Of a DNA stretch of 64,000 nt, positions 22,385 through 40,252 are shown in pieces. The stretch covers positions 2,480,001 through 2,544,000 of the forward strand of contig NZ_CP039393.1 of assembly GCF_004803695.1 (NCBI RefSeq). The letters are read 5' to 3'. Under the pieces are notes generated by a model. That model did not search any database. It was not told the origin of the DNA and saw nothing but the letters and a program-made list of their open reading frames with translations. The stretch's first letter is position 1. Every line of letters starts with the position of its first letter. This stretch comes from Muribaculum gordoncarteri (lineage in GTDB: Bacteria; Bacteroidota; Bacteroidia; Bacteroidales; Muribaculaceae). The translations under genes and the position numbers were made by a program.

Positions 22385-24427
22385 TTACCAGATAACGACG
22401 AGTTCCTCAGCCGGACGATACATCTTGTCACCCTTCTTGATGCCGAATGCCTCAAAGAAAGGAGTGAGGTTGCGCAACGTTACGTTAACGCGGTTTTCGC
22501 CGAGTGAGTGAACATCACCCGAGGTGAGCGAGCGAATCTCCTCCTCACGGGTGTTCTGTGCCCAAAGGTTGGCATAGTTGAGATAGAACACCTGCATGGG
22601 GTCGTAACCGTCGATCTTGGCCTCGGGGCTCTTGATGTCGACACCTTTCTTCTTCTGTGAGTCGAGGAATGCGGTCATTGCCACGCGAAGTCCGCCCTGG
22701 TCGGCGATGTTCTCACCGAGAGTGTACTGACCGTTGGCATGGAGGCCGGGAAGCACTTCCACTTCGTCAAACTGGGCAACAAGACCCTGTGTGAGCTTGG
22801 CAAATGCCTCGGTGTCCTCGGGAGTCCACCAGTTGACCATGTTGCCCTCGGCATCGAAGTTGCGGCCCTGGTCGTCAAATCCGTGAGTCATCTCATGTCC
22901 TATCACCACACCGATACCGCCGTAGTTCTCGGCATCGCTCGACTCGGGGTCGAAGAAGGGAGCCTGAAGAATGGCAGCGGGGAACACGATTTCATTGGCA
23001 AGAGGATTATAGTAGGCGTTGACTGTTTGAGGAGTCATACCCCACTCTGTCTTGTCGACGGGCTTGCCCCACTTGGCGAGCTCTTCCTTCTGGTGCCACA
23101 TCGATACGTTGTGCATATTCTCGTAGTAGGACAACTTGGGGTCGATTGTCATCGAGCTGTAGTCCTTCCACTTGTCGGGATAACCGATCTTCACGGTGAA
23201 GGCATTGAGCTTCTTGATAGCGTTGAGCTTGGTGTCGTCGCTCATCCAGGGAAGGTTGATGATGTGCTTGCCGAGTGCGGTGCGCAGGTTCTCGACAAGG
23301 CCGAGCATATACTGCTTTGACGACTCGGGGAAGTACTTCTCGACATAGAGCTGTCCGACAGCCTCACCCATCGCACCTTCAGCAGCACCGAGTGCACGCT
23401 TCCAGCGCGGACGCTGCTGCTGCACGCCGCTCACTACCTTGTTGAATTCAAATGCGGCATTGGCAAAGTCGTCGCTGAGCATTCCGGCGGCCTGGCTCAC
23501 ATATTTCCAAAGGTAGTAGTCCTTGATTTCGCGATCGGTGAGCGAGCCCATGAGGTTGTTGGCCTGAGCCACCGAGCTGAGTTCGGTCACGATGACGCTC
23601 TCGGGCGACTTGATACCCATCGTTTCGATGAAGAAGCGGTCCCAGTTGATATTGGGATACATGGCCTTGAGCTGCTCGAATGAACGGGGGTTGTACATGG
23701 CCGGGATGTTACGGCTCTGTTCGCGTGTCCAGGCTGAATCGGCAAGCGCGGTTTCAATCTTCATCACGTTGTTCATAACGCGGTTGGCATCCTTCTTGGA
23801 GTAACCGGCGTTACGCATCTGCGTTACGATGAGTTTCTTGTAAGCCTCGCGCACCTTCTTGTTGCGGGCGTCGTCGAGCAGATAGTAGTCACGGTCGCCA
23901 AGACCCATGCCGCCACCGCTTACATACATGGCATACACCTTGCTGTCGGCGAGGTCCTCCATGGGGCCTGCGCTGAAGAAGGGGCTTGCGTAGTTGGCGT
24001 GCAGCCACAAGAAGAGGTTCTCCATGCTGTCGGCGGGAGTGGTTTCGATTTTCTTGAGGTCGGCAAGGATGGGCTTAGCGCCTTCGGCGTTGCGTCTAAC
24101 CGAGTCCATGGCCTGGCTGTAGATTGTCCACACCTTGAAGGCAACCGATCCGGGCTTGGGATTTGTAGCTCCGAGGTTGAGCACGATGTCCTTCACGCGA
24201 GCCTCGCTTGAGTCGCTGAGGATGTTGAAGTTACCGTAACGTGCATGTTCGGGTGTGAGCGGATGGCTCTCCTGCCAACCCTTGTTGACATGCTTGTAGA
24301 AATCCTCGCCGGCGGGTGTCGACTTGTCAAAGTAAGCCGGATTGAGGCTCTTGAGATGCTCCTCGGCCGATGCGCTCAGCATAAAGCCGAAAGCCACGGC
24401 GAGTGCAAGAAATTTTAATGATTTCAT
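22385..24427 (-). CDS. pepO: M13 (neprilysin/PepO) family zinc endopeptidase
   Basis: A 680-residue exported protease (signal peptide about 1-21, no lipobox). The zinc site is HEMTH (511-515) within VVIGHEMTHGFDDQGRNFD, with the third ligand in GENIADQGG (Glu572); NAYYNPLANEIVFPAAILQ is the conserved substrate-binding stretch. M13 enzymes cut oligopeptides of limited size, here presumably in the periplasm. The C-terminal W at the end (VVIW) is typical of the family. It is a single gene with its own -7 box and terminator. It may work on peptides made by the C10 protease nearby, but that link is only inference. Confidence 0.95.
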   Translation of the reverse strand: MKSLKFLALAVAFGFMLSASAEEHLKSLNPAYFDKSTPAGEDFYKHVNKGWQESHPLTPEHARYGNFNILSDSSEARVKDIVLNLGATNPKPGSVAFKVWTIYSQAMDSVRRNAEGAKPILADLKKIETTPADSMENLFLWLHANYASPFFSAGPMEDLADSKVYAMYVSGGGMGLGDRDYYLLDDARNKKVREAYKKLIVTQMRNAGYSKKDANRVMNNVMKIETALADSAWTREQSRNIPAMYNPRSFEQLKAMYPNINWDRFFIETMGIKSPESVIVTELSSVAQANNLMGSLTDREIKDYYLWKYVSQAAGMLSDDFANAAFEFNKVVSGVQQQRPRWKRALGAAEGAMGEAVGQLYVEKYFPESSKQYMLGLVENLRTALGKHIINLPWMSDDTKLNAIKKLNAFTVKIGYPDKWKDYSSMTIDPKLSYYENMHNVSMWHQKEELAKWGKPVDKTEWGMTPQTVNAYYNPLANEIVFPAAILQAPFFDPESSDAENYGGIGVVIGHEMTHGFDDQGRNFDAEGNMVNWWTPEDTEAFAKLTQGLVAQFDEVEVLPGLHANGQYTLGENIADQGGLRVAMTAFLDSQKKKGVDIKSPEAKIDGYDPMQVFYLNYANLWAQNTREEEIRSLTSGDVHSLGENRVNVTLRNLTPFFEAFGIKKGDKMYRPAEELVVIW

Positions 24428-25469: not shown

Positions 25470-26636
25470 TCAATAACCCGAGATGTCGATTGACTCGATA
25501 CCTTCGAGATTGTTCAGTTCAAAGCCTGTCGAATTCCATGTTTCAACTACAATATCCTTGGTGTCGGGAGTAGCGAGATCGAGCGAACCGCCTATTGCGT
25601 AGCTTGCACCCGCACCCGATGCCGGAAGAATAGTGCCAAACACGTTGTCGCCCGTGAAATATGGGAACGTGAATGTGCTGCCGGTGAATCCGAATTTCAA
25701 TATTCCGTAACCCTCCATCGCCTCCATTGCGTCATCGGCCACGTTAAGCGACACGATTTCGGTCATGGACGGGATGAACACGAGTCCGGTGTTGGTGAGC
25801 ACAAGGTGGAACACATACTGGAATCCGGTACGCATCTCCACTTCGGGGAAGTCGATGACATAGCTCTTGCCGTCGATCACGGCAGTGAGAGTGGCGGGCT
25901 TGCCCTTGGTCGAGAATGGAATCACCCACACGCGGGGCAAATCGGAGTTCCATCCGCCGGCCGCAACAGTCTTGCTAACGCCCACATTCAGGGGATCCTT
26001 GCCTTCGACCGTGATTTTTCCGGTGCTTACATTCATCTTACCCGAGGTGTAGACCTCCTCGCCCGAGATGCCGAGCGAAGTCAGCGTGCCGGCACCGGTG
26101 TAGCCCTGCGACGCAATGTTGAAGGCGGCGAGAGCGAGCGCATGCTTCATGTTGAGCTTCACGTTGTGGGTGGTGAACGATGCGGGGACATACTCGCCCG
26201 AGTAGAGCAGGTCGACCTGCTCGGTGATGTTGACGGGAATCGCCGCAGGGTCGGTATAGGCGGCATTGAACGGAGCCACGGCGTAGAGGAATGCATTCTG
26301 ACCCTTCTTGATGCGAATCTCGGGGGCTATCGTCCAGCCCGAGCCACCCATGGTGGCCTTCACGTTCTCAACCATGTTGGGCGCATCGAGGCGTCCGTAG
26401 GTCTTGGGGTATATGTTCATCTCGGCACCCGATGTAAACTCGGTGGTGACATTGGCGCGGGTGATGACCTCGGTAGTGATGCCCACGGCAACGGTCTGGT
26501 CGTCGTCGGGAGTGCCGGTGTTGCCCGTGTCGGGCGAGTCGCCGCCTTTGTCGCTACAAGCTGTCATTAGGGCGACCACAAGGAGAGCGGTGCATCCGTT
26601 GATAAGATTGTATAGTTTCATAATCGGGTGTTTCAT
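25470..26636 (-). CDS. fimbrillin-family (Mfa-like) lipoprotein
   Basis: A surface lipoprotein of up to 388 residues; the second Met (26621, giving MKLYNLINGC) is the likelier start because it puts the lipobox (VALMTAC) at the normal distance. The mature part follows the fimbrillin / Mfa_like_1 layout: acidic linker, TTEVITRANVTTEFTSGAEMNIYP, then VKLNMKHALALAAFNI in the middle. Such proteins are pilus subunits or adhesive lipoproteins. Its start overlaps the C10 protease stop by 4 bp, so the two are translated from one message. It may bind protein substrates or be matured by a protease; both are inference. Confidence 0.72.
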   Translation of the reverse strand: MKHPIMKLYNLINGCTALLVVALMTACSDKGGDSPDTGNTGTPDDDQTVAVGITTEVITRANVTTEFTSGAEMNIYPKTYGRLDAPNMVENVKATMGGSGWTIAPEIRIKKGQNAFLYAVAPFNAAYTDPAAIPVNITEQVDLLYSGEYVPASFTTHNVKLNMKHALALAAFNIASQGYTGAGTLTSLGISGEEVYTSGKMNVSTGKITVEGKDPLNVGVSKTVAAGGWNSDLPRVWVIPFSTKGKPATLTAVIDGKSYVIDFPEVEMRTGFQYVFHLVLTNTGLVFIPSMTEIVSLNVADDAMEAMEGYGILKFGFTGSTFTFPYFTGDNVFGTILPASGAGASYAIGGSLDLATPDTKDIVVETWNSTGFELNNLEGIESIDISGY

Positions 26637-28264
26637 TTGGTGATTTTAATAGTCTTGACTTCAGTGCTGCAGCGAAGCTCGAGCACATTAACTCCATCGG
26701 CAAGCTGCGAGCGGTTGAACTGCAGCTGCGGCAGCGGGTCGAGAGCGCCCGATGCGATTACGGTGCCGGTGGGTGACTTGAGCGTGTAGCTCACGTTGTG
26801 CTTTGTCTTCAGGAGGAATTCGCCTGTCGTGCGGTTAAATGACATCGATGTTGCCTCGGCGATGCTGCGCCACGGCTGAACCTCGATAGAGAATCCCTGA
26901 GTGAGCGATTCGCCCGATGCATTGTCGGTGACCGTTATGTCGACAGCGATCACGCCGTCGGCCGAGCATGAGAGAGTGCGCGTGGTCTTCAACATTCCGT
27001 TCTCGATTACGAAGGGAGCCTCGGCATAGCTGTCGGTGCCGGCGTTATATAGTCCGCGAAGCTCAAATGTCATGCCCGATGTGGGGGCCTCGCCGTTGAC
27101 CGTGACGGTGGCCACGGTAGATCCGGCGGGAAGTCCCTCCTCGATCACCGTACCGCTCAGCCCGATGCTGCGCAGCAGACGGTCGGGAGCGCCGATGCCT
27201 ATCACAATCACGTGATAGTCGTCGAAGTAGTAGGGAGAGTCACGCAGGTTGTCAAGACGGAAGTAACCGTCGCCGTTGCCGCCCCATCCCCAGTTGACAT
27301 GATAGCCCGAATTGCCGTCATAGCCGTCGACATTGAAGCTGTGACCTGCACTGAGCTTGGTGTCGACAGCATTGTATATCACGGCGCGGCCGGCGTTAAG
27401 CTCGTTGAGCACGAGGCGTTCCCAATCGCCCTGATAAGCGTCCTTCCACACATAGGCCACTTCGTCGCCGTAGCCGAAGTTGTCGCGGAGGGCGTTGGTT
27501 ATACGATTGACCTCGTTGGAGGGGATGCCCGAGCCGTCGGGGCCGTAGCCCATTCTCACGCTCATGCCGGCATGCCACATCAGGCGGGCAGCCTCATCAT
27601 AGGTGTTGGCACCCGAAAGAATGTCGTCCCAATTGTAGGCGCGCTCCTCGTCAAAGTTGATGCTGAGCTGTCCGTAGCCTACCGGAGTGTACTTCACCGA
27701 GCCTGTGGGACGCGAAGGATAGGCCTGCACGCTCATGGCCTGTGACATGGCAACGGCCACACAGCCCACGATAGCCTTGTTGTCACCCTCGCCGGGACAA
27801 TATTTGTTGAAAGGCGCGGGCTGGTTCCACTTCACCTTGATAAGAGGCTCTACGGCAGATCCCGATGCACGTGACAAGACCTTGCCAACCGACTCCCACT
27901 GACGGATGCGCGGCGACAACTCCTCGTCTACGCCAAGCTTGACGAGCTTCTTGTAGGAATCGAGCATATAGGCCATATTGTCGGGAATCGCCGACATGGA
28001 CAACGCACCCGTGGCCGAATATCCGATTACAGGGTCGACCTTGTCGTCGGCCGACACCATCACCCATCCTTGGGGAGCAAGATTGACGACATAAAAAGCA
28101 TCGTCCACCGCCTGCACCTGCTTAACCGTGCGGCTCTTTCCTGTCACGCCCTTGATTTGTGCCACGGCGGCGGCCTCGGCACGCTGTCGGTCGACCGGAC
28201 CGGCCCACACGCTCACAACGGTGGCGGCCGTCAACAAGAGAATTGATAGTATTCGCTTTGTCAT
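26633..28264 (-). CDS. C10 family (streptopain-like) cysteine protease
   Basis: A 543-residue secreted protease. A signal peptide (about 1-21) is followed by an inhibitory prodomain (about 22-130, AAAVAQIKGVTGKSRTV ... WVMVSADDKVDPVIGYS). The catalytic domain has Cys168 in AIVGCVAVAMSQ and His308 in LSAGHSFNVDGYDG, then the YHVNWGWGGNGDGYFRL block typical of SpeB/streptopain. About 180 residues at the C-terminus form Ig-like or secretion-type strands. It is the first gene of a two-gene unit with the fimbrillin-like lipoprotein and lies beside RagAB-like genes. Confidence 0.92.
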   Translation of the reverse strand: MTKRILSILLLTAATVVSVWAGPVDRQRAEAAAVAQIKGVTGKSRTVKQVQAVDDAFYVVNLAPQGWVMVSADDKVDPVIGYSATGALSMSAIPDNMAYMLDSYKKLVKLGVDEELSPRIRQWESVGKVLSRASGSAVEPLIKVKWNQPAPFNKYCPGEGDNKAIVGCVAVAMSQAMSVQAYPSRPTGSVKYTPVGYGQLSINFDEERAYNWDDILSGANTYDEAARLMWHAGMSVRMGYGPDGSGIPSNEVNRITNALRDNFGYGDEVAYVWKDAYQGDWERLVLNELNAGRAVIYNAVDTKLSAGHSFNVDGYDGNSGYHVNWGWGGNGDGYFRLDNLRDSPYYFDDYHVIVIGIGAPDRLLRSIGLSGTVIEEGLPAGSTVATVTVNGEAPTSGMTFELRGLYNAGTDSYAEAPFVIENGMLKTTRTLSCSADGVIAVDITVTDNASGESLTQGFSIEVQPWRSIAEATSMSFNRTTGEFLLKTKHNVSYTLKSPTGTVIASGALDPLPQLQFNRSQLADGVNVLELRCSTEVKTIKITK

Positions 28265-28507: not shown

Positions 28508-29401
28508 TTATCGTGTCATGTTGACAAGATTCAGCGATTTCCATCCTCCCATGAAGTCACCGGTAGCCTCGTCAAACACTGCGAGGTAGAGCACGGGTGA
28601 ATCCTGGAATGTAATCTCAGTGAACATGTCGTTCCACTCGGCGCGTAATGTTCCGTCGGTAACCACATATCCGTTCTCAACCGTAGCTGCAAGCACTGTG
28701 CCGGTAAAGCTTCCGAAGTCTACACCGTCGGCAACAAGTGTTCCGAGGGGCACTTCGAGATAACCTACATTGGTGGCCTTGTCAAAGAAGTAGCTTACTT
28801 CGAGCTGAGCCCAGCTATAACCCATTATACCGGTTATGTATAGGGTTTCGTTGTAACCGGCCTCAGTTTCTTCATAACCTACCACATTAACATCCCACTT
28901 GTCGGGAGCACCCTTTGAAACGAAGTTGAGAGCCCACTTGCCCATCAGCTTTTCATAGAACTCAGAGTCATTGTCGCGGATTGTAACGGTGGTAGAGCGC
29001 TCGTTACCGATCTTTGCGCCCTTTGCGTCAACGATTGTCACGATAAACTCGCGGTTCTCGTTGATTTCACCGTCATCAACGGTCTTGATTTCAACATTGC
29101 CCACCTTGTCTTCGCTGGCAATGTTGATAGTCTTTGATGTTACGATATAGTGAACATCGTCCATGGCGGGATTGCCTGTAGCCTCCTGAACCTCGACAGT
29201 AACCTGTACATATCCGTTGGCTTCACCCGAAACGACTACGGGAACATTGAAGTAGCCCTTGTTTTCCTTCAATGTGATTGAAGGCTGAGCCATGTCAACG
29301 GTCACGTTGCCGTCGGAGTTGAAATTGAATTCGTCGTCATCGGAGCAGGCAGTCATGGTCAGGACAGCTAACCCGATTGCTAATATTTTGCTTAATTTCA
29401 T
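28508..29401 (-). CDS. Calx-beta-like surface lipoprotein of the first SusC/D unit
   Basis: A 297-residue lipoprotein (lipobox VLTMTAC, Cys19, followed by the acidic SDDDE that often marks surface export in Bacteroidetes). Residues about 35-150 resemble a Calx-beta-type Ig fold (SITLKENKGYFNVPVVVSG ... REFIVTIVDAKGAKIG ... TVTIRDND). The rest is strand-rich, like a ligand-binding module. It is third in the order susC-susD-lipoprotein and mirrors the gene at 39461, so it is probably a surface-exposed binding partner of the transporter. Ligand unknown. Confidence 0.7.
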   Translation of the reverse strand: MKLSKILAIGLAVLTMTACSDDDEFNFNSDGNVTVDMAQPSITLKENKGYFNVPVVVSGEANGYVQVTVEVQEATGNPAMDDVHYIVTSKTINIASEDKVGNVEIKTVDDGEINENREFIVTIVDAKGAKIGNERSTTVTIRDNDSEFYEKLMGKWALNFVSKGAPDKWDVNVVGYEETEAGYNETLYITGIMGYSWAQLEVSYFFDKATNVGYLEVPLGTLVADGVDFGSFTGTVLAATVENGYVVTDGTLRAEWNDMFTEITFQDSPVLYLAVFDEATGDFMGGWKSLNLVNMTR

Positions 29402-29440: not shown

Positions 29441-30961
29441 TTAGTAACCGGGATTCTGCTGACCCTTCAACTGAGGATTAACCTGGATTTCATCAGAAGG
29501 AATGGGCCAAGTGTAACGGTGGTCGTCGGCTGGGTACTGAACCGAAAGTCCGGCAGTTACAAGTATAGGATCAAGACCCCAGGCAGCGGGATAGTCGTAG
29601 CTGCGCTTGAATCCCTGCTTCCAGCGACGGAGGTCGGTGATACGGAATCCTTCGCCGATAAGCTCCTTGGTGCGCTCGTCGCGAACCTGCTGAATAAGAG
29701 CCTGGCCTGAGTAGTTGGCATCCTCCCAATCGATTATACGGTTGGCACGGAGAGTGTTGAGGGCTGCATTGGCCTTGTCGGGCTGATTGTTCATGGCAGC
29801 GGCCTCGGCAAGGATGAGGTACTGCTCGCTCAAGCGGAAGGGCTTGGGCATGTTCATGATGTTGTTGGCAGTCGAAGTCTTAAGCGCGGGGTTGCCGGGG
29901 AACTTGTTGAAGTTGTAGCAAGGATATTCGGCACCGTCGACGGTAAGGCCACGAATGTTGAAGAATGCGTCGAAGCGAACATCACCGTCCTCATACATGG
30001 CAAGAGCCTCGAAGCCGGGGATATAATCGGCACGGTCGTCATAGATTGAAATCCAGGCGCTACCGGTAGAATTCAAGTTGGGCTGCTCGGAGCTTGATGC
30101 GAAGGGACGGAAGATGATTTCCGAGCTTTCGTCATTGACCCACATGTCAATATAGTTATCGGTATTGGCAAGAGTGTAGACCTTGGAGTTGATAACCGAC
30201 TCAGCCTTGCTGATAGCGGTGGCGTAGTCACCGATCATGAGGGCGAAGCGTGCCTGCATTGCCATTACGGTGTAAGAGCAGATGTAGGGCGACATGGGAG
30301 CAACGTGCTTCTTGTCGGAAGCCTCGTAGGTCTGCATTGCAGTGAGAGCGAGGTTAAGCTCGTCGTTGATAAGCTTTACCGACTCGTTCATTGTGCTGCG
30401 GCCGGGGTACTTGCTACGGTCGGCAGTAGGATTGTACTCAAGTGTGATGGGCACACCGAGAGCGGGAGTGTCGCCCTTGTCGGCAGAATATACCTGGCAG
30501 AAGCGATCGAAAAGTGCGATGTAGTAGAATGCACGGGTGAAGTGAGCCTCACCGATGTAACGCTCAATGTCAAGACGGTCGTCGGCATCCTCGGTATTCT
30601 CCAGAAGGGGCTCGGCCTTTGACAGGAAGTAGTTGACCGATGCTATGCGGCTGTAGCAGGTGCTCCACAATGAAAGCACATCGCCGTCGCCGGCAAGCAG
30701 ATTTCCGTTGGCGATTGTTCCGTTACGGTTACCGTTGATGGTGATGCCGTTGAACATATCGGCCTGAAGCTCAGGCTTGGTGATATAAGAGCCCGAGGTC
30801 ATCGAACGGAATCCGCTGTAGAATCCGTTGCGATAGCGTTGTGCGTCGTTTGCGCTTTGGATGGCGTTGTCGTCATCAAGTGCTCCGTAAGGTGCCTCGT
30901 CCATGTTACATGATGAGAGCAAGCCCACAGCGAACAATGCGTATAAAAGATATTTTTTCAT
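29441..30961 (-). CDS. SusD/RagB-family outer-membrane lipoprotein (unit 1)
   Basis: A 506-residue SusD-type lipoprotein (lipobox VGLLSSC, Cys18). Family marks include the TPR-like helices (YIGEAHFTRAFYYIALFDRFCQVY, a characteristic SusD stretch), SEQYLILAEAAAMNNQPDKANAALNTLRANRI and the C-terminal VRDERTKELIGEGFRITDLRRW. SusD proteins form the lid over the SusC barrel and help capture ligand at the cell surface. It follows susC by 20 bp. Because the partner SusC resembles RagA, its ligand is more likely a peptide than a glycan; that is inference. Confidence 0.93.
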   Translation of the reverse strand: MKKYLLYALFAVGLLSSCNMDEAPYGALDDDNAIQSANDAQRYRNGFYSGFRSMTSGSYITKPELQADMFNGITINGNRNGTIANGNLLAGDGDVLSLWSTCYSRIASVNYFLSKAEPLLENTEDADDRLDIERYIGEAHFTRAFYYIALFDRFCQVYSADKGDTPALGVPITLEYNPTADRSKYPGRSTMNESVKLINDELNLALTAMQTYEASDKKHVAPMSPYICSYTVMAMQARFALMIGDYATAISKAESVINSKVYTLANTDNYIDMWVNDESSEIIFRPFASSSEQPNLNSTGSAWISIYDDRADYIPGFEALAMYEDGDVRFDAFFNIRGLTVDGAEYPCYNFNKFPGNPALKTSTANNIMNMPKPFRLSEQYLILAEAAAMNNQPDKANAALNTLRANRIIDWEDANYSGQALIQQVRDERTKELIGEGFRITDLRRWKQGFKRSYDYPAAWGLDPILVTAGLSVQYPADDHRYTWPIPSDEIQVNPQLKGQQNPGY

Positions 30962-30981: not shown

Positions 30982-33900
30982 TTAGAAACTAACTTCAATA
31001 CCAAACTCGTACTGACGGGTATTGGGATAGTAGAATGCCACAAGGTTGCTTTCGGGCTCGGGGTCGTAACCGGTGAACGAAGTGAAGGTCAACAGGTTGC
31101 GGCCGGTGAAGTGAAGATTTACGCCTGACAGACAAGCTTTATTCACCCATGCCTTGGGAAGTGAGTACTGAAGAGTGAGGTTCTTCAGACGAACGAATGA
31201 AGCGTCCTCAAGCCAGCGGTCGTCAAACTGGAGAGCCTGACCGGGAGCAGGGATGTCGGTGATGTCACCGGGCTTGGTCCACACGTTAAGCATCTCAACG
31301 CGCTGGTTGTAGGATGTAGCAAAGTTATTGTTGGTGATGAAGTAGAGATCGTTGTTGATCATGTACTTCTTGGCTGCCCAGGTGAAGTCCATGCGGAGTG
31401 AAAGACCCTTCCAGCGCAAGTCGGTTCCGAAACCGCCCGACCAGGGTGAATACTGCGACTTGTCAAGAATCTGTGAATCGCGGGTTTCGTTAAACACCTT
31501 GGTGAGGTTGCCGTCCTTGGTGTACCACATCTGCTGACCGTCGCGGGGGTCAACACCTGCGTACTTCACGCAATAGAACGAACCTGCATCGTGACCGACC
31601 TTATAGATAACGTTGGCGTTGAGGAACGGAAGTTCATCAAGACCGTCGTAGAGGTCGGTGATCTCATTCTTGTTGTAGTTGAAGTTGGCGCGAACATTCC
31701 ATGTCCAGTCACGGGTATTGATGATGTTGGCCTTTACATCAACATCGACACCACGGTTGCGCATACCGCCTACGTTACCCCAGCCACCGTCGAAACCGGT
31801 AGTGTAGCTGTAAGGAATCTCAAGAAGCATGTCGCAAGTCTGCTTGTTGTAGAAGTCGACATCGACATCAAGGATGTTGAAGAGGCCGAAGTTCAAGCCG
31901 AGGTCAAATGACTTCACGGTTTCCCAGGTGAGGTCGCTGTTGGCGGCCTGTGAGATGCCGAGTGAGCCTTGTCCGTTATATACGTTTCCGGCACCGATGA
32001 GGCCGTAGTACATATAGTTGTCGATTGAAGAGTTACCTGTAGTACCGTAGCTGATGCGGAACTTAAGGTCGTCGAGCCATGTGTAGGGCTGGAGGAACTT
32101 CTCTGACTTGATGTTCCACATACCGCCTACCGAGAAGAAGTTGGCCCAACGGTGACCGGGAGCAAACTTCGAGCTACCGTCGCGACGATAAGTGAAGTCA
32201 AAGAAATACTTGCTGTCGTAGTCGTAGCTGAGCTGAGCGAATATAGAGTTCATCACAGTGCGAACGAGGCTTTCGCTCAAGTCGCTGATGGCGACGCTTG
32301 TACCCTGAGTGAGGAGCATCTGACGACGGTCGCTCTGACCTTCCGAGAATACTCCGAAGCCTTCGCTCTGAGAGATGATCGACTCTTCACCGACGAGAGC
32401 TCTTACATTGTGAACATCGGCGATGTTGAAGTTATACTCGGCAGTGTTGGTGTAGGTAAACGAGTAGTAGCGTGAGAATGACTGCTGGTTGTAACCGGTT
32501 ACAAGCTCGCCGGCAGTACCACCGTTGGCATATACATCGCCCATCGGGGTGTAGAGGGTTTCGTTCGGGAAACCGAGGTTCTTCAGTCGGGTGTCGTAAG
32601 CGTCGACAGCCTGCTGAGCGCGGAGGGTAAGACCCTTTATGGGAGTGAACGCCTCATAGAGAGCGGCGTTGATAGTAAGACGATTGCGAAGCACGCTACG
32701 GCCGCTACGGATGTAGTCGGGAGTAGGCATACCGGAATAGTGTAGATATTCGGCACGGTCGCCCCACATTATATTACCATTGTCGTCGAATGTATAATAA
32801 TAAGGAGAATCGTAAGGGAGAGCCTTGCGGGCAAACACCATCGGGTTGGTAGGATAGAGACCGTCGCCCGAGTAGGATGCACCTGACTCGTTGTTGGTTT
32901 CATACTTGGTATAACCGAGGTTGGTCTGCAAGCCTACGCGGAACCAGTCGGTAACCTTTGAGTCAACGCTTACGCGCATAGTTTCACGACGCATGCCCGA
33001 CTGAGCGATGATACCTTCCTGATTCAGGTGGTTGAGCGATATATAATAAGATGTACGCTCGGTACCGCCGGTAACAGCTCCTTCAAGTGAATAGGTGGGA
33101 GCGCTGCCGTCGAATATCTCATCACGCCAGTTGGTGGAGATGCCATGCTTGTTTACGAGATCCTTGATGCCTTGAGAAACAGGCTGACCGATTTTGTCGC
33201 GATACTCGATGTACTGGTCAGAGTTCATCATGTCGACCTTGTCGGGAGTAAGCTGCGACCAACCATACTTTGCACGGATGGTAACGCGGGCCTGCTGTCC
33301 GTATTTACCTTTCTTTGAGGTGATAACGATAACACCGTTGGCAGCACGTGAACCGTAGATGGCTACCGATGCGGCATCCTTCAACACGGTGATGCTCTCG
33401 ATGTCGTTAGGGTTAAGGGTCGTGAACACTGTCTGGGTAACGGGGGCACCGTCGAGGATAAACAACGGAGTGGTGCCTGCGTTAAGAGAGTTCAAACCAC
33501 GAAGACGAATCTGGTTGTCAACCGAAGAGGGGTCACCCGATGACGAGAAAATCGAAAGACCGGCCACCTGACCCTGAAGGGCGTCTACGAAAGTAGGAGT
33601 GGTAAGGTTCTCGAAATTCTGCTCACCGATAACAGCCACTGAACCGACGATCGAACCGAGCTTCTTGCCCGAACCGTAACCGGTCACCACTACTTCGTCG
33701 AGGCGAGTGTCCGAGGTTTCAAGACGAATGGTCATGTTGTCCTGTACGGGCACGGTCACCGGCTTCATTCCTATATAGGAAACCGTCAGCTGACTTACTT
33801 TGTTGGATACTGTCAGGTGGAATTTTCCGTCAAGGTCGGTAGCCGTTCCGCTGCCGCCTCCCACCGGGACTACCGTCGCGCCCACGAGAGGCTCGCCGTC

Positions 33901-33996
33901 AGCCGCCGACACGACTGTTCCGCGTATGCTGCGGCTTTGCGCCGAAACCGATACGACGGTCAGGAGTGCAAAAAGTAAAAGAATGAACTTCTTCAT
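30982..33996 (-). CDS. SusC/RagA-family TonB-dependent transporter (unit 1)
   Basis: A 1004-residue outer-membrane transporter. Signal peptide 1-19 (MKKFILLLFALLTVVSVSA), a carboxypeptidase-regulatory-like domain (about 22-95), a TonB box region (LDEVVVTGYGSGKK), the plug (DALQGQVAGLSIFSSSGDPS, LKDAASVAIYGSRAANGVIVITSKKGK) and a 22-strand barrel ending in the terminal Phe. The plug and the C-terminal part (MINNDLYF, ARNLLTFT-like, YPNTRQYEFGIEVSF) recall RagA of Porphyromonas gingivalis, a peptide importer. Its first 14 residues and leader are shared exactly with the divergent susC. Confidence 0.94.
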   Translation of the reverse strand: MKKFILLLFALLTVVSVSAQSRSIRGTVVSAADGEPLVGATVVPVGGGSGTATDLDGKFHLTVSNKVSQLTVSYIGMKPVTVPVQDNMTIRLETSDTRLDEVVVTGYGSGKKLGSIVGSVAVIGEQNFENLTTPTFVDALQGQVAGLSIFSSSGDPSSVDNQIRLRGLNSLNAGTTPLFILDGAPVTQTVFTTLNPNDIESITVLKDAASVAIYGSRAANGVIVITSKKGKYGQQARVTIRAKYGWSQLTPDKVDMMNSDQYIEYRDKIGQPVSQGIKDLVNKHGISTNWRDEIFDGSAPTYSLEGAVTGGTERTSYYISLNHLNQEGIIAQSGMRRETMRVSVDSKVTDWFRVGLQTNLGYTKYETNNESGASYSGDGLYPTNPMVFARKALPYDSPYYYTFDDNGNIMWGDRAEYLHYSGMPTPDYIRSGRSVLRNRLTINAALYEAFTPIKGLTLRAQQAVDAYDTRLKNLGFPNETLYTPMGDVYANGGTAGELVTGYNQQSFSRYYSFTYTNTAEYNFNIADVHNVRALVGEESIISQSEGFGVFSEGQSDRRQMLLTQGTSVAISDLSESLVRTVMNSIFAQLSYDYDSKYFFDFTYRRDGSSKFAPGHRWANFFSVGGMWNIKSEKFLQPYTWLDDLKFRISYGTTGNSSIDNYMYYGLIGAGNVYNGQGSLGISQAANSDLTWETVKSFDLGLNFGLFNILDVDVDFYNKQTCDMLLEIPYSYTTGFDGGWGNVGGMRNRGVDVDVKANIINTRDWTWNVRANFNYNKNEITDLYDGLDELPFLNANVIYKVGHDAGSFYCVKYAGVDPRDGQQMWYTKDGNLTKVFNETRDSQILDKSQYSPWSGGFGTDLRWKGLSLRMDFTWAAKKYMINNDLYFITNNNFATSYNQRVEMLNVWTKPGDITDIPAPGQALQFDDRWLEDASFVRLKNLTLQYSLPKAWVNKACLSGVNLHFTGRNLLTFTSFTGYDPEPESNLVAFYYPNTRQYEFGIEVSF

Positions 33997-34106
33997 ACTA
34001 CAATTTTTAATTAGACATATAAAGTTTTTAAATGTTGTATAGAACTGAGCTTAATGTTAAGCCTTATTTGCACTTACACGTAGTATCTCTTGCCGAGAGA
34101 TACTAA
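33956..34106 (-). repeat. left arm of the large inverted repeat between the two susC genes
   Basis: This 151 bp arm covers the start of the unit 1 susC signal peptide and its leader. It pairs with 34427-34578. The outer 98 bp (33956-34053) are identical between arms; the inner part has a few changes and a 1 bp indel. It contains a leader hairpin AGTATCTC-N7-GAGATACT. Confidence 0.92.
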
Positions 34107-34426
34107 AACACCTTACAAAGTTAGTACAAAAAGCTGTAATATAAACAATTTGTAGCATTTTTTTTCTTTGTTTTAACATTTTGGCACCGTTGAAAACGCA
34201 CTCATTTGCACATTTCACCACCGATATGCTCCTAATAATCACATATTTATACGTATCTAAAATTATTCATGTTCAAAAATCCATTTTGTCATTTTAAATA
34301 AAATAAGCTAACAGGAAAATTTCACATTTTATGGCTCAAATAGCACTATTTTAACACAATTGATGTTGCAAAAGCGGGAAGTAACGCAGTGGGAATCGTT
34401 TGATTAGACGCGCACAGAATCACCGA
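34107..34426. other. A/T-rich spacer between the inverted repeats
   Basis: A 320 bp non-coding, A/T-rich segment. The only full -7 match is on the minus strand at its left edge, facing unit 1. On the plus strand I find no TAnnTTTG box in front of unit 2 susC. No open reading frame of note. Confidence 0.7.
34116..34123 (-). promoter_or_regulatory. -7 box for unit 1 susC, inside the spacer
   Basis: Minus-strand TAACTTTG matches TAnnTTTG and lies just outside the inverted repeat, within the 320 bp spacer. A weak -33-like ATTG is about 22 bp upstream. No equivalent box is seen on the plus side. Confidence 0.6.
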
Positions 34427-34578
34427 TTAGTATCTCTCGGCAAAAGATACTATCCAAATGTGCAAATAAGGCTTAACAACTAAGCTCAGTTCTATACAAC
34501 ATTTAAAAACTTTATATGTCTAATTAAAAATTGTAGTATGAAGAAGTTCATTCTTTTACTTTTTGCACTCCTGACCGT
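34427..34578 (+). repeat. right arm of the large inverted repeat
   Basis: This 152 bp arm covers leader and signal-peptide codons of unit 2 susC and is the inverted copy of 33956-34106. The innermost 17 bp (TTAGTATCTCTCGGCAA) are identical in both arms, as are the outer 98 bp. Similarity stops abruptly after the codons for LLTV. Confidence 0.92.
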
Positions 34579-37500
34579 GACGGCCGTGTCGGCACAGACA
34601 CGCACCGTGACGGGAACAGTCGTGTATGCCGGCGACGGCGAGCCGCTTCCCGGCGCGACCATCCTCCCCGTAGGTGGCGGCCTCGGAACTGCTACCGACA
34701 TCGAAGGCGAATTTTCATTGAAAGTGTCGTCAAGCGTCACTAAACTCCTGGTATCCTACGTGGGAATGCTCACGCAGGAGGTGCCCATCACCGACGGGCA
34801 CATGACCATCCGTCTTACCAACTCGGAGAACAAGCTTGACGAAGTCATGGTAGTAGCTTACGGCACAGCCAAGAAATCGGCCTACACCGGTGCGGCATCA
34901 GTGGTAAGCGCAGCCGACATCGAGGATCGCCTCGTGTCCAACATCACCAACGCCCTCAGCGGTACGGTGGCCGGTGTGCAGACACTCAACAGCAACGGCC
35001 AGCCCGGTACATCGTCGACCGTGCGCATACGCGGTGTGGGCTCAATCAACGCATCCATGGCTCCCCTCTACGTGCTTGACGGAATGCCCTACGACGGCGA
35101 CATCGCAGGACTCAATCCCGCCGACATCGAGTCGATGACAGTGCTCAAGGACGCGGCCGCAGCCGCCCTCTACGGAGCGCGCGGTGCCAACGGTGTAATC
35201 CTCATCACCACAAAGCGAGGCAAGGAAGGCAACGCCAAGGTGACATTTGACGCCCGCTGGGGTTCCAACTCACGCCAAGTGTCAAACTACGATGTCATCA
35301 CAAGCCCCGAGCAATTCATGGAGCTCACCTATGCAGCTCAGCGTAACGCAGCCATATACCACCTCGGCTACAGCGCTGCCGACGCACATGTCTACGCCAA
35401 CCGCAAGCTTCTCGACACTTCCGAGAACGGCCCCATAGGTTATCTGCTCTACACAATCCCCGACGGACAGTCGCTCATCAACCCCGACGGAACATTCAAC
35501 CCCAACGCCACACGAGGCTACAGCGACGGCACCTACTATTACACCCCCGACGACTGGAGCAAGGCCACATTCCGCAACGGACTCCGCCAGGAGTACAACG
35601 TGAGCGTGTCGGGAGGCAATGACCGATTCAACTATTACGTGTCGGCCGCCTACCTCAACGACGAGGGTATCATCGACAACTCGGCATTCGACCGTCTGTC
35701 GACACGTGCAAGCGTCGAGTATCAGGCCAAGAAGTGGCTGAAGATCGGCACCAACATCTCCTACTCGTTCAGCAAGTCAAAGTATCCCGACCTGCAGACC
35801 GAAAGCGGTTCATCGGGCAACGCCTTCCAGGTGGCCAACTACATTGCTCCCGTCTACCCCATCTTCGTGCGCAACGCCGACGGCTCGCTGATGATGAACA
35901 CTACCTACAACCGCCCCGTATATGACTACGGCGACGGACAGAGCACCAACTTCACCCGCGCCTACATGTCGATGGCCAACCCCGCGTCGTCGCTTCTCTA
36001 CGACACCGAGGAGTATCTCACCGACCTGTTCAACGGAAAGTGGTTTGTACAGCTTACCCCCATCGAAGGACTGTCGATTACCGGCAACGTGGGATTGACA
36101 ATCGACAACACCCGCACCCACATCATATCCAATCCCCTCTACGGACAGTCGGCCTCCTACAAAGGCCAAGCTCTTCAGGTGGCCGAGCGCATCAAGGGAC
36201 TCAACCTGCAGGCACTCGCCAACTACCGCAAGACATTCTTCGACAAGCACACCTTTGACTTCCTCCTCGGTTACGAAAGCTACGAGTGGAACAACGAGTA
36301 CACCCAGGCCATCGGCAACAACCTCTACAACCCCGGCAGCTGGGCGGTAAACAACACCCTTAACGACGACCGACGCAAGGGCTACGGCTCCTACGGTGCC
36401 TACTCTACCCGCGGTTACTTCGGCCGCATCAACTACGACTTCGACAGCAAGTACTTCGCAAGCTTCAGCTACCGTCGCGACGGTTCGTCACGCTTCCATC
36501 CCAAGAACCGCTGGGGTAACTTCTACTCCGTGTCGGCAGCCTGGGACATTGCCCACGAATCATTCATGATGTCGACAAGCGAGTGGCTCGACCAGTTGAA
36601 GCTGCGCGCGTCATTCGGTCAGCAGGGTAACGACGGAATCGGCAACAACTACGCCTATCTCGACCAGTTCACCATTTCAGGTGCCACCGAGTGGAGCGAC
36701 GGACTTCTGAGCTACAAGGGAAATCCCGACCTCACATGGGAAACATCCAACGCATTCAACGTAGGCGTCGACTTCAGCCTGTGGAAGGGAATGCTCAGCG
36801 GTAGCGCTGAATTCTTCAACCGCCAGACGAGCGACATGCTCTACAACAAACCCGTGGCTCCGTCACTCGGTTACTCATCGATACCGATGAACATCGGCTC
36901 GATGCGCAACAGCGGTTTTGAAATAGAGCTAAACTACCGTCCCGTAACCACACGCAACATCACATGGGACATCAACTACAATGCTACATTTGTCAACAAC
37001 AAGATCCTGAAACTCGCTCCCGAACTTGAAGGAGAACTCATCTCGGGCTCAAGCATCTACCGCGAAGGCGAGTCGATGTATCAGCTCTACATGGTCAAGT
37101 ATGCAGGCGTGGATCCCGCAACAGGACGCGCACTCTACTGGGGCAAGGACGCTGAAGGCAACGAGTTCCCCACCACCGACTGGTCGGTAGCCTACAACGG
37201 CGACACCGCTTCGGGAGCCCAGGCCAACCGCTGCGCCACCGGCAACCTTCTTCCCGTAGTCTACGGAGGTTTCGGAACTACGCTGAAAGTCTACGGCTTC
37301 GACCTCGCCATAGCATGCTCCTACCAGCTCGGAGGCAAGATATTCGATTCGGGCTATCAGGAAATGATGGGTACCGGCACATCGGGCGAATACGGACGGA
37401 CATTCCACAAGGACATCCTCAACGCATGGACACCCGAGAATCCCTACACCGACGTTCCCCGTCTTGACGCCGAGGAAGCCTACCCCTTCTTCAACTACAC

Positions 37501-37747
37501 GACAACCCGCGGTCTTATAACATCCAACTACCTTGCCATCAACAACATCACGTTGGGTTACACGCTGCCCTCTTCCGTCACCAAGCGCATAGGCATCGAA
37601 AGCATACGCGTATACGGAGCAGCCGACAACCTCGCTCTTTGGAGCGCACGCAAGGGTCTTGACCCGCGCCAGAGCTACACATCATCGACAACATCAACTT
37701 ACACCGCAATGCGTTGCATATCGGGTGGCGTGAAAGTCGTGTTCTGA
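34538..37747 (+). CDS. SusC-family TonB-dependent transporter (unit 2)
   Basis: A 1069-residue SusC homologue. Signal peptide 1-19, carboxypeptidase-like domain (VTGTVVYAGDGEPLPGATILPVGGGLGTATD), TonB box region (LDEVMVVAYGTAKKSAYTGAASVV), plug (ALSGTVAGVQTLNSNGQPGTSSTVRIRGVGS, LKDAAAAALYGARGANGVILITTKRGK) and a full barrel ending in GGVKVVF. The first 14 residues are encoded by DNA identical to the divergent susC, but the rest is clearly different, so ligand specificity should differ. It is followed by its susD (34 bp gap) and a third lipoprotein. Confidence 0.94.
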   Translation: MKKFILLLFALLTVTAVSAQTRTVTGTVVYAGDGEPLPGATILPVGGGLGTATDIEGEFSLKVSSSVTKLLVSYVGMLTQEVPITDGHMTIRLTNSENKLDEVMVVAYGTAKKSAYTGAASVVSAADIEDRLVSNITNALSGTVAGVQTLNSNGQPGTSSTVRIRGVGSINASMAPLYVLDGMPYDGDIAGLNPADIESMTVLKDAAAAALYGARGANGVILITTKRGKEGNAKVTFDARWGSNSRQVSNYDVITSPEQFMELTYAAQRNAAIYHLGYSAADAHVYANRKLLDTSENGPIGYLLYTIPDGQSLINPDGTFNPNATRGYSDGTYYYTPDDWSKATFRNGLRQEYNVSVSGGNDRFNYYVSAAYLNDEGIIDNSAFDRLSTRASVEYQAKKWLKIGTNISYSFSKSKYPDLQTESGSSGNAFQVANYIAPVYPIFVRNADGSLMMNTTYNRPVYDYGDGQSTNFTRAYMSMANPASSLLYDTEEYLTDLFNGKWFVQLTPIEGLSITGNVGLTIDNTRTHIISNPLYGQSASYKGQALQVAERIKGLNLQALANYRKTFFDKHTFDFLLGYESYEWNNEYTQAIGNNLYNPGSWAVNNTLNDDRRKGYGSYGAYSTRGYFGRINYDFDSKYFASFSYRRDGSSRFHPKNRWGNFYSVSAAWDIAHESFMMSTSEWLDQLKLRASFGQQGNDGIGNNYAYLDQFTISGATEWSDGLLSYKGNPDLTWETSNAFNVGVDFSLWKGMLSGSAEFFNRQTSDMLYNKPVAPSLGYSSIPMNIGSMRNSGFEIELNYRPVTTRNITWDINYNATFVNNKILKLAPELEGELISGSSIYREGESMYQLYMVKYAGVDPATGRALYWGKDAEGNEFPTTDWSVAYNGDTASGAQANRCATGNLLPVVYGGFGTTLKVYGFDLAIACSYQLGGKIFDSGYQEMMGTGTSGEYGRTFHKDILNAWTPENPYTDVPRLDAEEAYPFFNYTTTRGLITSNYLAINNITLGYTLPSSVTKRIGIESIRVYGAADNLALWSARKGLDPRQSYTSSTTSTYTAMRCISGGVKVVF

Positions 37748-39460: not shown

Positions 39461-40252
39461 ATGAAATTCTTAAAATCACATATTGTTTTTGCCCTGGCTG
39501 CAATGGCCGCATTGTCGTCGTGCAGCGAGGACGGATACTGGGACCAGTATTCCGAAGCCGACAACAAGTTCAGCTTCCAGCAATCGAGCGTATCCTACAA
39601 GTACAGCAGTCCCGATTTCCCGTCGACCATAACGGTTCAGATAACACGTGACGACTCCAACGGCGAGGCTACACTCCCCGTAACCGCCACAACCGACGCT
39701 GCGGGAATCTCTTGCCCCTCACAGGTCACATTCCCGGCCGGAGTCAACTGCGTGGAATATCCTATAACTGTCGATGCTGCATCCATCCCGTTTGCCGAGG
39801 ACATAACAGTGGAACTGGCAATTACCGATGATGACACTTCGATTTCGGGAATCGGAGAAATCACGGTAAGCCTGTACAAGGACTTCACATGGAACTACAT
39901 AGGCGACGGTGTCTACACTACCAACATATTCGGCGACCAGTGGCCTCAGCCCGTCTATCGCGCACAGGAGAATCCTCAAGCCTTCATGCTTGAGAATCTC
40001 ATCGCGACAGGCTATAACATCTGGTTCATGCTCGATGACACCTACTCGCAGGTACAGTACTACCCGCTTCAGGCCACAGGCTACTACGACCAAGGCGACC
40101 TCACCTACTATCTTCCCAATCTGAGCCAGTCCTATGTCGACGGCGACGATGTAGTGTTCCTTCAGCAGCTCGCCTACTACAGCGGTGCCAATCTCGCACT
40201 GCTCGCCCGCAGCTGGGAGTCAATAACAATGCCTGCCGGTTGGAACAACTGA
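39461..40252 (+). CDS. surface lipoprotein of the second SusC/D unit
   Basis: A 263-residue lipoprotein (lipobox AMAALSSC, Cys21, then SEDGYWD). The first half shows Calx-beta-like strands (FPSTITVQITRDDSNGEATLPVTATTDAAGI ... DITVELAITDDDTSISGIGEITVSLYKD), the second half is Tyr- and Gln-rich strand sequence. It parallels the lipoprotein at 28508 in position and architecture. Probably an accessory binding protein of the transporter. Last gene of the unit. Confidence 0.7.
   Translation: MKFLKSHIVFALAAMAALSSCSEDGYWDQYSEADNKFSFQQSSVSYKYSSPDFPSTITVQITRDDSNGEATLPVTATTDAAGISCPSQVTFPAGVNCVEYPITVDAASIPFAEDITVELAITDDDTSISGIGEITVSLYKDFTWNYIGDGVYTTNIFGDQWPQPVYRAQENPQAFMLENLIATGYNIWFMLDDTYSQVQYYPLQATGYYDQGDLTYYLPNLSQSYVDGDDVVFLQQLAYYSGANLALLARSWESITMPAGWNN

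Follow-up and report, generated by a model that had tools for sequence, protein, structure and literature searches.

The spacer between two head-to-head susC genes of Muribaculum gordoncarteri is very probably a two-way invertible promoter (inverton) that chooses between unit 1 and unit 2. This reading is supported because the anatomy of the locus matches that of a whole family of elements with inverted core-matched sites, an outward-facing promoter at a fixed distance and associated recombinases. The locus lies in a stretch of 64,000 nucleotides (contig NZ_CP039393.1, positions 2,480,001 to 2,544,000 of the forward strand), which is called the window in the following. Positions refer to the window unless a contig or another locus is named.

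SusC/SusD complexes are abundant surface importers. The two units of the window face away from each other and comprise the following genes and leaders:

25470..26636, minus strand: Mfa-like fimbrillin, possible member of unit 1 (putative operon member)
26633..28264, minus strand: C10 family peptidase with Spi inhibitor domain, possible member of unit 1 as judged by gene order and strand
28508..29401, minus strand: Calx-beta domain protein of unit 1
29441..30961, minus strand: susD of unit 1 (SusD_RagB, SusD-like_3)
30982..33996, minus strand: susC of unit 1, 1004 aa
33956..34053, minus strand: 98 bp of leader and first signal-peptide codons, identical to 34481-34578
33997..34080, minus strand: 5' leader of susC of unit 1, outside the left site
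34453..34537, plus strand: 5' leader of susC of unit 2, mostly identical to the unit 1 leader
34481..34578, plus strand: 98 bp, identical partner of 33956-34053
34538..37747, plus strand: susC of unit 2, 1069 aa
37782..39431, plus strand: susD of unit 2
39461..40252, plus strand: 263-aa protein of unit 2 without Pfam or NCBIfam match

A first-pass annotation of this DNA had described two long inverted arms and proposed that they flank an invertible promoter. All of its coordinates were reproduced: the arms extend over 33956-34106 (151 bp) and 34427-34578 (152 bp) and enclose a spacer of 320 bp. As it had claimed, the arms are identical in their outer 98 bp (33956-34053 vs 34481-34578) and in their innermost 17 bp. 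Past the arms the identity of the coding sequences drops to about 0.75 and becomes lower further in. The assignment of both genes as susC was likewise correct (TIGR04056, 812 and 784 bits).

The leader was found twice in the 3.43-Mb genome. Its partner was retrieved with an E value of 1.7e-61 and the next-best place with 0.08, which excludes chance. A widespread leader family was considered and rejected since the leader occurs only these two times in the genome and Rfam gave no match up to E 0.5. The inverted similarity of the flanks amounts to 84% over 255 bp. The first-pass annotation had taken the identity of the leaders as a sign of ongoing recombination. The identity itself was confirmed; the identical stretch lies outside the predicted invertible segment. 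Leader and signal-peptide identity probably goes back to duplication or gene conversion and is itself no part of the machinery; gene conversion or recent copying would best explain the 98 identical bases. An orthologue of the whole locus was sought in 13 congeners and was not found.

An M13 peptidase gene of 680 aa is located at 22385-24427, past the 3' end of unit 1 and on the same strand as unit 1. Another M13 peptidase gene of 680 aa (L324:5897-7939) has a promoter switch 41 bp from its start.

The inner end of each arm consists of a 25-bp palindrome, TAGTATCTC-N7-GAGATACTA, which the first-pass annotation had overlooked. Site and promoter features are arranged as follows:

34081..34105, minus strand: left recombination site, TAGTATCTC-N7-GAGATACTA, core TCGGCAA toward unit 1, inverted partner of 34428-34452
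34106..34427, no strand: segment of 322 bp between the sites, predicted to be invertible from the site anatomy
34116..34123, minus strand: promoter -7 box TAACTTTG, 10 bp inside the left site and facing unit 1 in the assembly
34428..34452, plus strand: right recombination site with one arm mismatch (AAGATACTA), core TCGGCAA toward unit 2

When inverted, the left and right sites match at 24 of 25 positions and share the core TTGCCGA. A whole-genome search with the strict pattern TAGTATCTN{5,12}AGATACTA gave four places, which form two inverted pairs, and no place with the reversed control. A looser scan of the same genome (ATCTCTN5AGAGAT, at most one mismatch) gave 19 places vs two in the reversed control. 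Sixteen of these 19 places can be grouped into eight inverted pairs. Within each of the eight pairs the two 7-bp cores agree when one is inverted, and no two pairs share a core. Such matching within a pair is predicted by strand exchange between partner sites and not by an operator or an RNA hairpin.

In the other seven pairs of the genome the exact repeat reaches no more than 2 bp past the 25-bp site, and in six of these seven no inverted flank similarity was detectable within 500 bp. The exception is a pair at locus L159, whose flanks are 85% alike over 351 bp. Thus, the long arms are no part of the machinery and were rejected in this role. The inverted-repeat switch proposed by the first-pass annotation is supported by the anatomy, but its working repeat is the 25-bp inner site and not the 151-bp arm. 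Consequently, the arms themselves should contain the crossover points, at about 34090-34096 and 34437-34443. The same observations bear on general homologous recombination between the 98-bp leaders, which could cause occasional inversion or gene conversion without a dedicated recombinase. The 98 bp of identity and their abrupt stop at diverged coding sequence do resemble a recent conversion or copying event, and the flanks of L159 are similarly alike. However, the short repeats of all seven other pairs and the dissimilar flanks of six of them, together with the matching cores and the association with recombinases, point to site-specific exchange and make this explanation very unlikely.

The locus fits the anatomy of an inverton, as one TAnnTTTG motif, the predicted promoter, lies between two inverted 25-bp sites. 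A scan of 33991-34540 revealed the box toward unit 1 as the only TAnnTTTG, exactly as the first-pass annotation had stated, and also bore out its claim that unit 2 lacks a facing one. A different kind of promoter may drive unit 2. In the genome as a whole, seven of the eight pairs carry an outward-facing TAnnTTTG 5-13 bp inside one site; at L157 a second box is present 99 bp in, and the pair at C1:1557979/1558175 has no strict TAnnTTTG match.

This geometry was compared among 45 site loci, five from the M. gordoncarteri genome and 40 picked from a scan of the whole family. An inverted core-matched partner was present in 39 loci and a direct one in one locus, a pairing rate which is partly selected since the 40 loci were picked for few mismatches, pairing or contig ends. 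In five of the six loci without inverted partner the contig ends no more than 100 bp from the site. Promoter boxes played no part in the choice of the 45 loci, which include two near copies (L225 and L271). An outward TAnnTTTG was observed at 8-15 bp in 33 of the 39 pairs and an inward one at this distance in none (0/39); the remaining 6 of 39 have no box at 8-15 bp. In 200 trials with shuffled spacers an outward box was found in a mean of 0.5 of 39 pairs and in three of 39 at most.

These results also bear on the possibility that the leader was merely duplicated, each susC having its own promoter and the palindromes serving as operator sites or RNA hairpins. The susC genes are indeed paralogous, their leaders are alike and in each of them the site folds into a hairpin, although the stability of the leaders does not clearly exceed that of shuffled sequences (z -0.94 and -1.04). 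Operators or hairpins, however, need no inverted cores that match within pairs and differ between them, and the reading of the palindromes as operators or hairpins only was rejected on this pairwise core matching. Moreover, the same type of inverted site pair also flanks promoters of unrelated genes, and unit 2 has no facing TAnnTTTG of its own. We therefore regard leader duplication alone as highly improbable and retain the invertible promoter.

Among the 297 genomes of the window's family the site was detected in 82 and the reversed control in 14 (at most three mismatches, single sites counted). In the order outside this family it was found in 28 of 291 sampled genomes and the reversed control in 17. 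An exact form of the site gave no hit in viral contigs. No site pair was found beside 80 relatives of SusC (0/80, with less than 500 bp of upstream sequence in 21 of the 80). Thus, the switch is no general property of the SusC transporter family. Sites at contig ends (L266, L267, L268, L269, L270, L280 and L281, several of which were picked for that) could reflect mixed orientations in a population.

In 7 of the 39 pairs (eight when the near copy L271 is counted) the switch is flanked on either side by paralogues, at a distance of up to about 1.2 kb:

Window pair: susC on both sides
L159, same genome, switch at G000:C1:2987293-2987702: DUF3575-type genes on both sides, the left copy by Pfam and the right one by alignment
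L274 and L275, two other genera: susC on both sides
L276: Wzz-like kinases on both sides
L225 and L232: UpxY-type genes on both sides, in L232 below the curated cut-off

Similarity between the facing genes of the window pair, and likewise between those of L274, is highest in the first part and decreases inward; the leaders of L274 are unlike each other. In L275 the identity of the facing genes is low throughout. Tentatively, one unlinked recombinase, Inv1 (see below), might serve eight switches, and the class with paralogues on both sides (susC/susC and DUF3575/DUF3575, in relatives susC/susC and capsule/capsule) might represent two-position selectors in which one version is on at any time, while gene conversion would keep the leaders of the two sides interchangeable. 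We consider this proposal possible but somewhat doubtful.

Several further features of the switched loci were recorded. By eye, L274 seems to contain a third site (about 7705, 7863 and 8254), so more than one segment could invert there. At L159 (about 8150 and 8832) the left DUF3575-type gene seems to be one T longer than the right copy in a homopolymer of the signal-peptide region, which shifts the frame; slipped-strand variation or a sequence error are possible causes of this extra T, which was read from an alignment. UpxY-type antiterminators that carry about 280 aa more as an additional N-terminal half were observed beside promoter switches; all of them score below the curated cut-off:

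L237:8776-10251, L273:10072-11430 and L227:1392-2813: N-terminal half matches integrase SAM-like domains
L228:8723-10180, L263:6248-7636, L226:1455-2861 and L240:8520-9905: N-terminal half matches a profile of the L237, L273 and L227 halves

It seems unusual for such a recombinase-antiterminator fusion to occur at switched loci.

A tyrosine recombinase was encoded within 200 bp of the site pair in 5 of 40 fetched loci, and these five share 50-55% identity with one another. Conversely, among the 30 best-scoring recombinase loci, two of which are near copies, 17 had a site pair no more than 1.5 kb away; when the six query rows are left out, the count is 12 of 24. In a comparison set of other PF00589 matches in the M. 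gordoncarteri genome no locus had a site pair (0/30). Across 297 genomes recombinase and site occurred together in 69, the site only in 13, the recombinase only in 115 and neither in 100 (Fisher p 4e-7, a value that ignores phylogeny). At E 1e-60 the recombinase was detected in 184 of 297 genomes of the family vs 37 of 291 outside it.

The M. gordoncarteri genome has 38 matches to PF00589, none of them within the window. Two belong to the site-associated recombinase family:

G000:C1:984363-985601: Inv1, 412 aa, sharing 54-60% identity with the five site-adjacent recombinases and containing arm-binding, SAM-like and catalytic domains
C1:1122196-1123122: Inv2, a shorter paralogue of Inv1 with 308 aa and without the arm-binding domain

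Their PF00589 scores are 36.7 bits (Inv1) and 27.2 bits (Inv2) at a cut-off of 27.1. The residues R261, K287, R360, H383 and Y392 are invariant in six recombinase sequences, and we take them to be the catalytic set with the arginines and the tyrosine expected of tyrosine recombinases. Y357 presumably occupies the place of the HxxR histidine found in many members. Solved structures gave only distant matches (XerC-like, XerA, IntI4 and integrase). Inv1 or Inv2 is the likely cognate enzyme, as judged by homology and by the association in relatives. No site pair adjoins either gene, so the enzyme would have to act from a distance. Alternatively, a serine enzyme of the resolvase family, as in Mpi-type systems, might act on the sites; two serine recombinase genes (PF00239) are present in the genome, both on contig C3, but the enzymes found next to the sites in relatives are tyrosine recombinases. 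The genome further contains an array of three integrases in two copies with identical scores (G000:C1:1840366-1842864 and 3266731-3269229), probably a duplicated mobile element.

The locus might also be a former switch which is now locked, either by decay of the right site (AAGATACTA) or by loss of the enzyme. The single arm mismatch of this site and the lack of a PF00589 gene in the window would fit such a state. Against it, the core is intact and the site pair matches at 24 of 25 positions, whereas six of the other pairs in the genome reach only 17-23 of 25 (one has 25/25), and the genome encodes two recombinase homologues with open frames. A locked switch is therefore unlikely, and a working invertible promoter remains the preferred reading.

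Inversion was observed among plasmid relatives. Homologues of Inv1 were found in 83 plasmid records, and the eight listed are 49-52% identical and derive from Phocaeicola, Parabacteroides and Bacteroides. In the three plasmid loci examined (L326, L327 and L328) two pairs of palindromic sites come after the recombinase; their cores match, and a promoter box lies 11-14 bp inside one site. In the annotated plasmid loci a UpxY/EPS operon follows the switches. Comparison of NZ_CP072238.1 with NZ_CP072253.1 revealed that the second segment of 216 bp is exactly inverted (100%) and ends within the sites, with one other mismatch in 1001 bases. This inversion was seen in one case; 20 plasmid records matched this stretch. 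Hence DNA that is flanked by such sites and located next to such an enzyme does invert, and the adjacent plasmid recombinase presumably carries out the 216-bp inversion. In one genome of the window's family the paralogous loci L266 and L267 have spacers that are homologous (83% over 69 bp) but point in opposite directions relative to a homologous flank, which weakly suggests two orientations, the flank match being short and itself a terminator-like hairpin. The near-identical loci L225 and L271 have the same orientation and provide no second one. On the pMMCAT plasmid of L334 (NZ_CP072245.1, 108-1437) a transposase and a hypothetical gene separate the recombinase from its switches, and two further plasmid records have the same shortened match.

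For the window the following mechanism is proposed. A tyrosine recombinase, Inv1 or Inv2 acting from a distance on eight switches, would bind the two inverted 25-bp sites. Strand exchange in the identical 7-bp cores (34090-34096 and 34437-34443) would flip the approximately 350 bp between them and thereby move the promoter, now 10 bp from the left site, to the same distance from the right site. There it would drive unit 2 (susC, susD and the 263-aa protein) in place of unit 1, whose output would comprise SusC, SusD, the Calx-beta protein and possibly the C10 peptidase and the fimbrillin. The assembly orientation faces unit 1, and unit 2 is predicted to be off. From the site anatomy and the relatives we infer inversion of this spacer, the acting recombinase and the exclusive expression of one unit. 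If the selector proposal is true, one of two importers always stays on, unlike in a simple on/off switch, and a clonal gut population could hedge between nutrients or antigens while transport is kept. Furthermore, the site consensus, the promoter spacing and the candidate enzyme would allow such switches to be listed across this gut family.

Promoter inversion is a known mechanism in Bacteroidales; what may be new here is the two-way susC/susC toggle. Judged by titles and the beginnings of abstracts, no two-way or divergent invertible promoter was evident in the literature on Bacteroides, and a literature search for Muribaculaceae together with phase variation, invertible DNA or PhaseFinder found nothing. 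According to the descriptions at hand, inverton groups of gut Bacteroidota are classed by repeat motif, contain a Bacteroidota promoter and are in some cases tied to nearby invertase groups (PMC11892184). The window switch resembles them by this description rather than by motif tables, and neither "Muribacul-" nor "SusC" occurs in the main text of that report. For SusC-linked invertible regions an orientation differing between inflammatory bowel disease patients and controls is described, as well as T-cell responses elicited by a SusC epitope (PMC10939037).

In B. fragilis the tyrosine recombinase Tsr19 (BF2766) is described to invert local and distant promoters which govern EPS and outer-membrane-protein genes (PMC4747536; review PMC12632263). 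As described there, this system shares with our proposal the promoters between inverted repeats and the single recombinase with local and distant action. By the same description it differs in being one-sided, IVp-II having no influence on the upstream groES/EL, whereas the window has susC paralogues on both sides. Tsr0667 of B. fragilis is reported to mediate shufflon-type multiple inversion at three SusC/SusD clusters (Nakayama-Imaohji 2009, as described in PMC4747536). From this account, both cases would have in common that SusC/SusD expression is varied through inversion of DNA, carried out by a tyrosine-type recombinase (Tsr). In the window, however, only non-coding DNA and one promoter lie between the sites, so that, unlike the Tsr0667 system in that account, the coding sequence would stay in place; both sites are upstream of the start codons, and no exchange of coding segments is apparent. 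The EPS locus of the Bacteroides plasmid pMMCAT (NZ_CP072253.1 and NZ_CP072238.1) corresponds to the window in its recombinase, 49% identical to Inv1, in its core-matched palindromic sites and in the inner box. It differs in the adjacent position of the recombinase, in site arms of the TTCTC type and in two tandem switches, both of which are located upstream of one UpxY-EPS operon.
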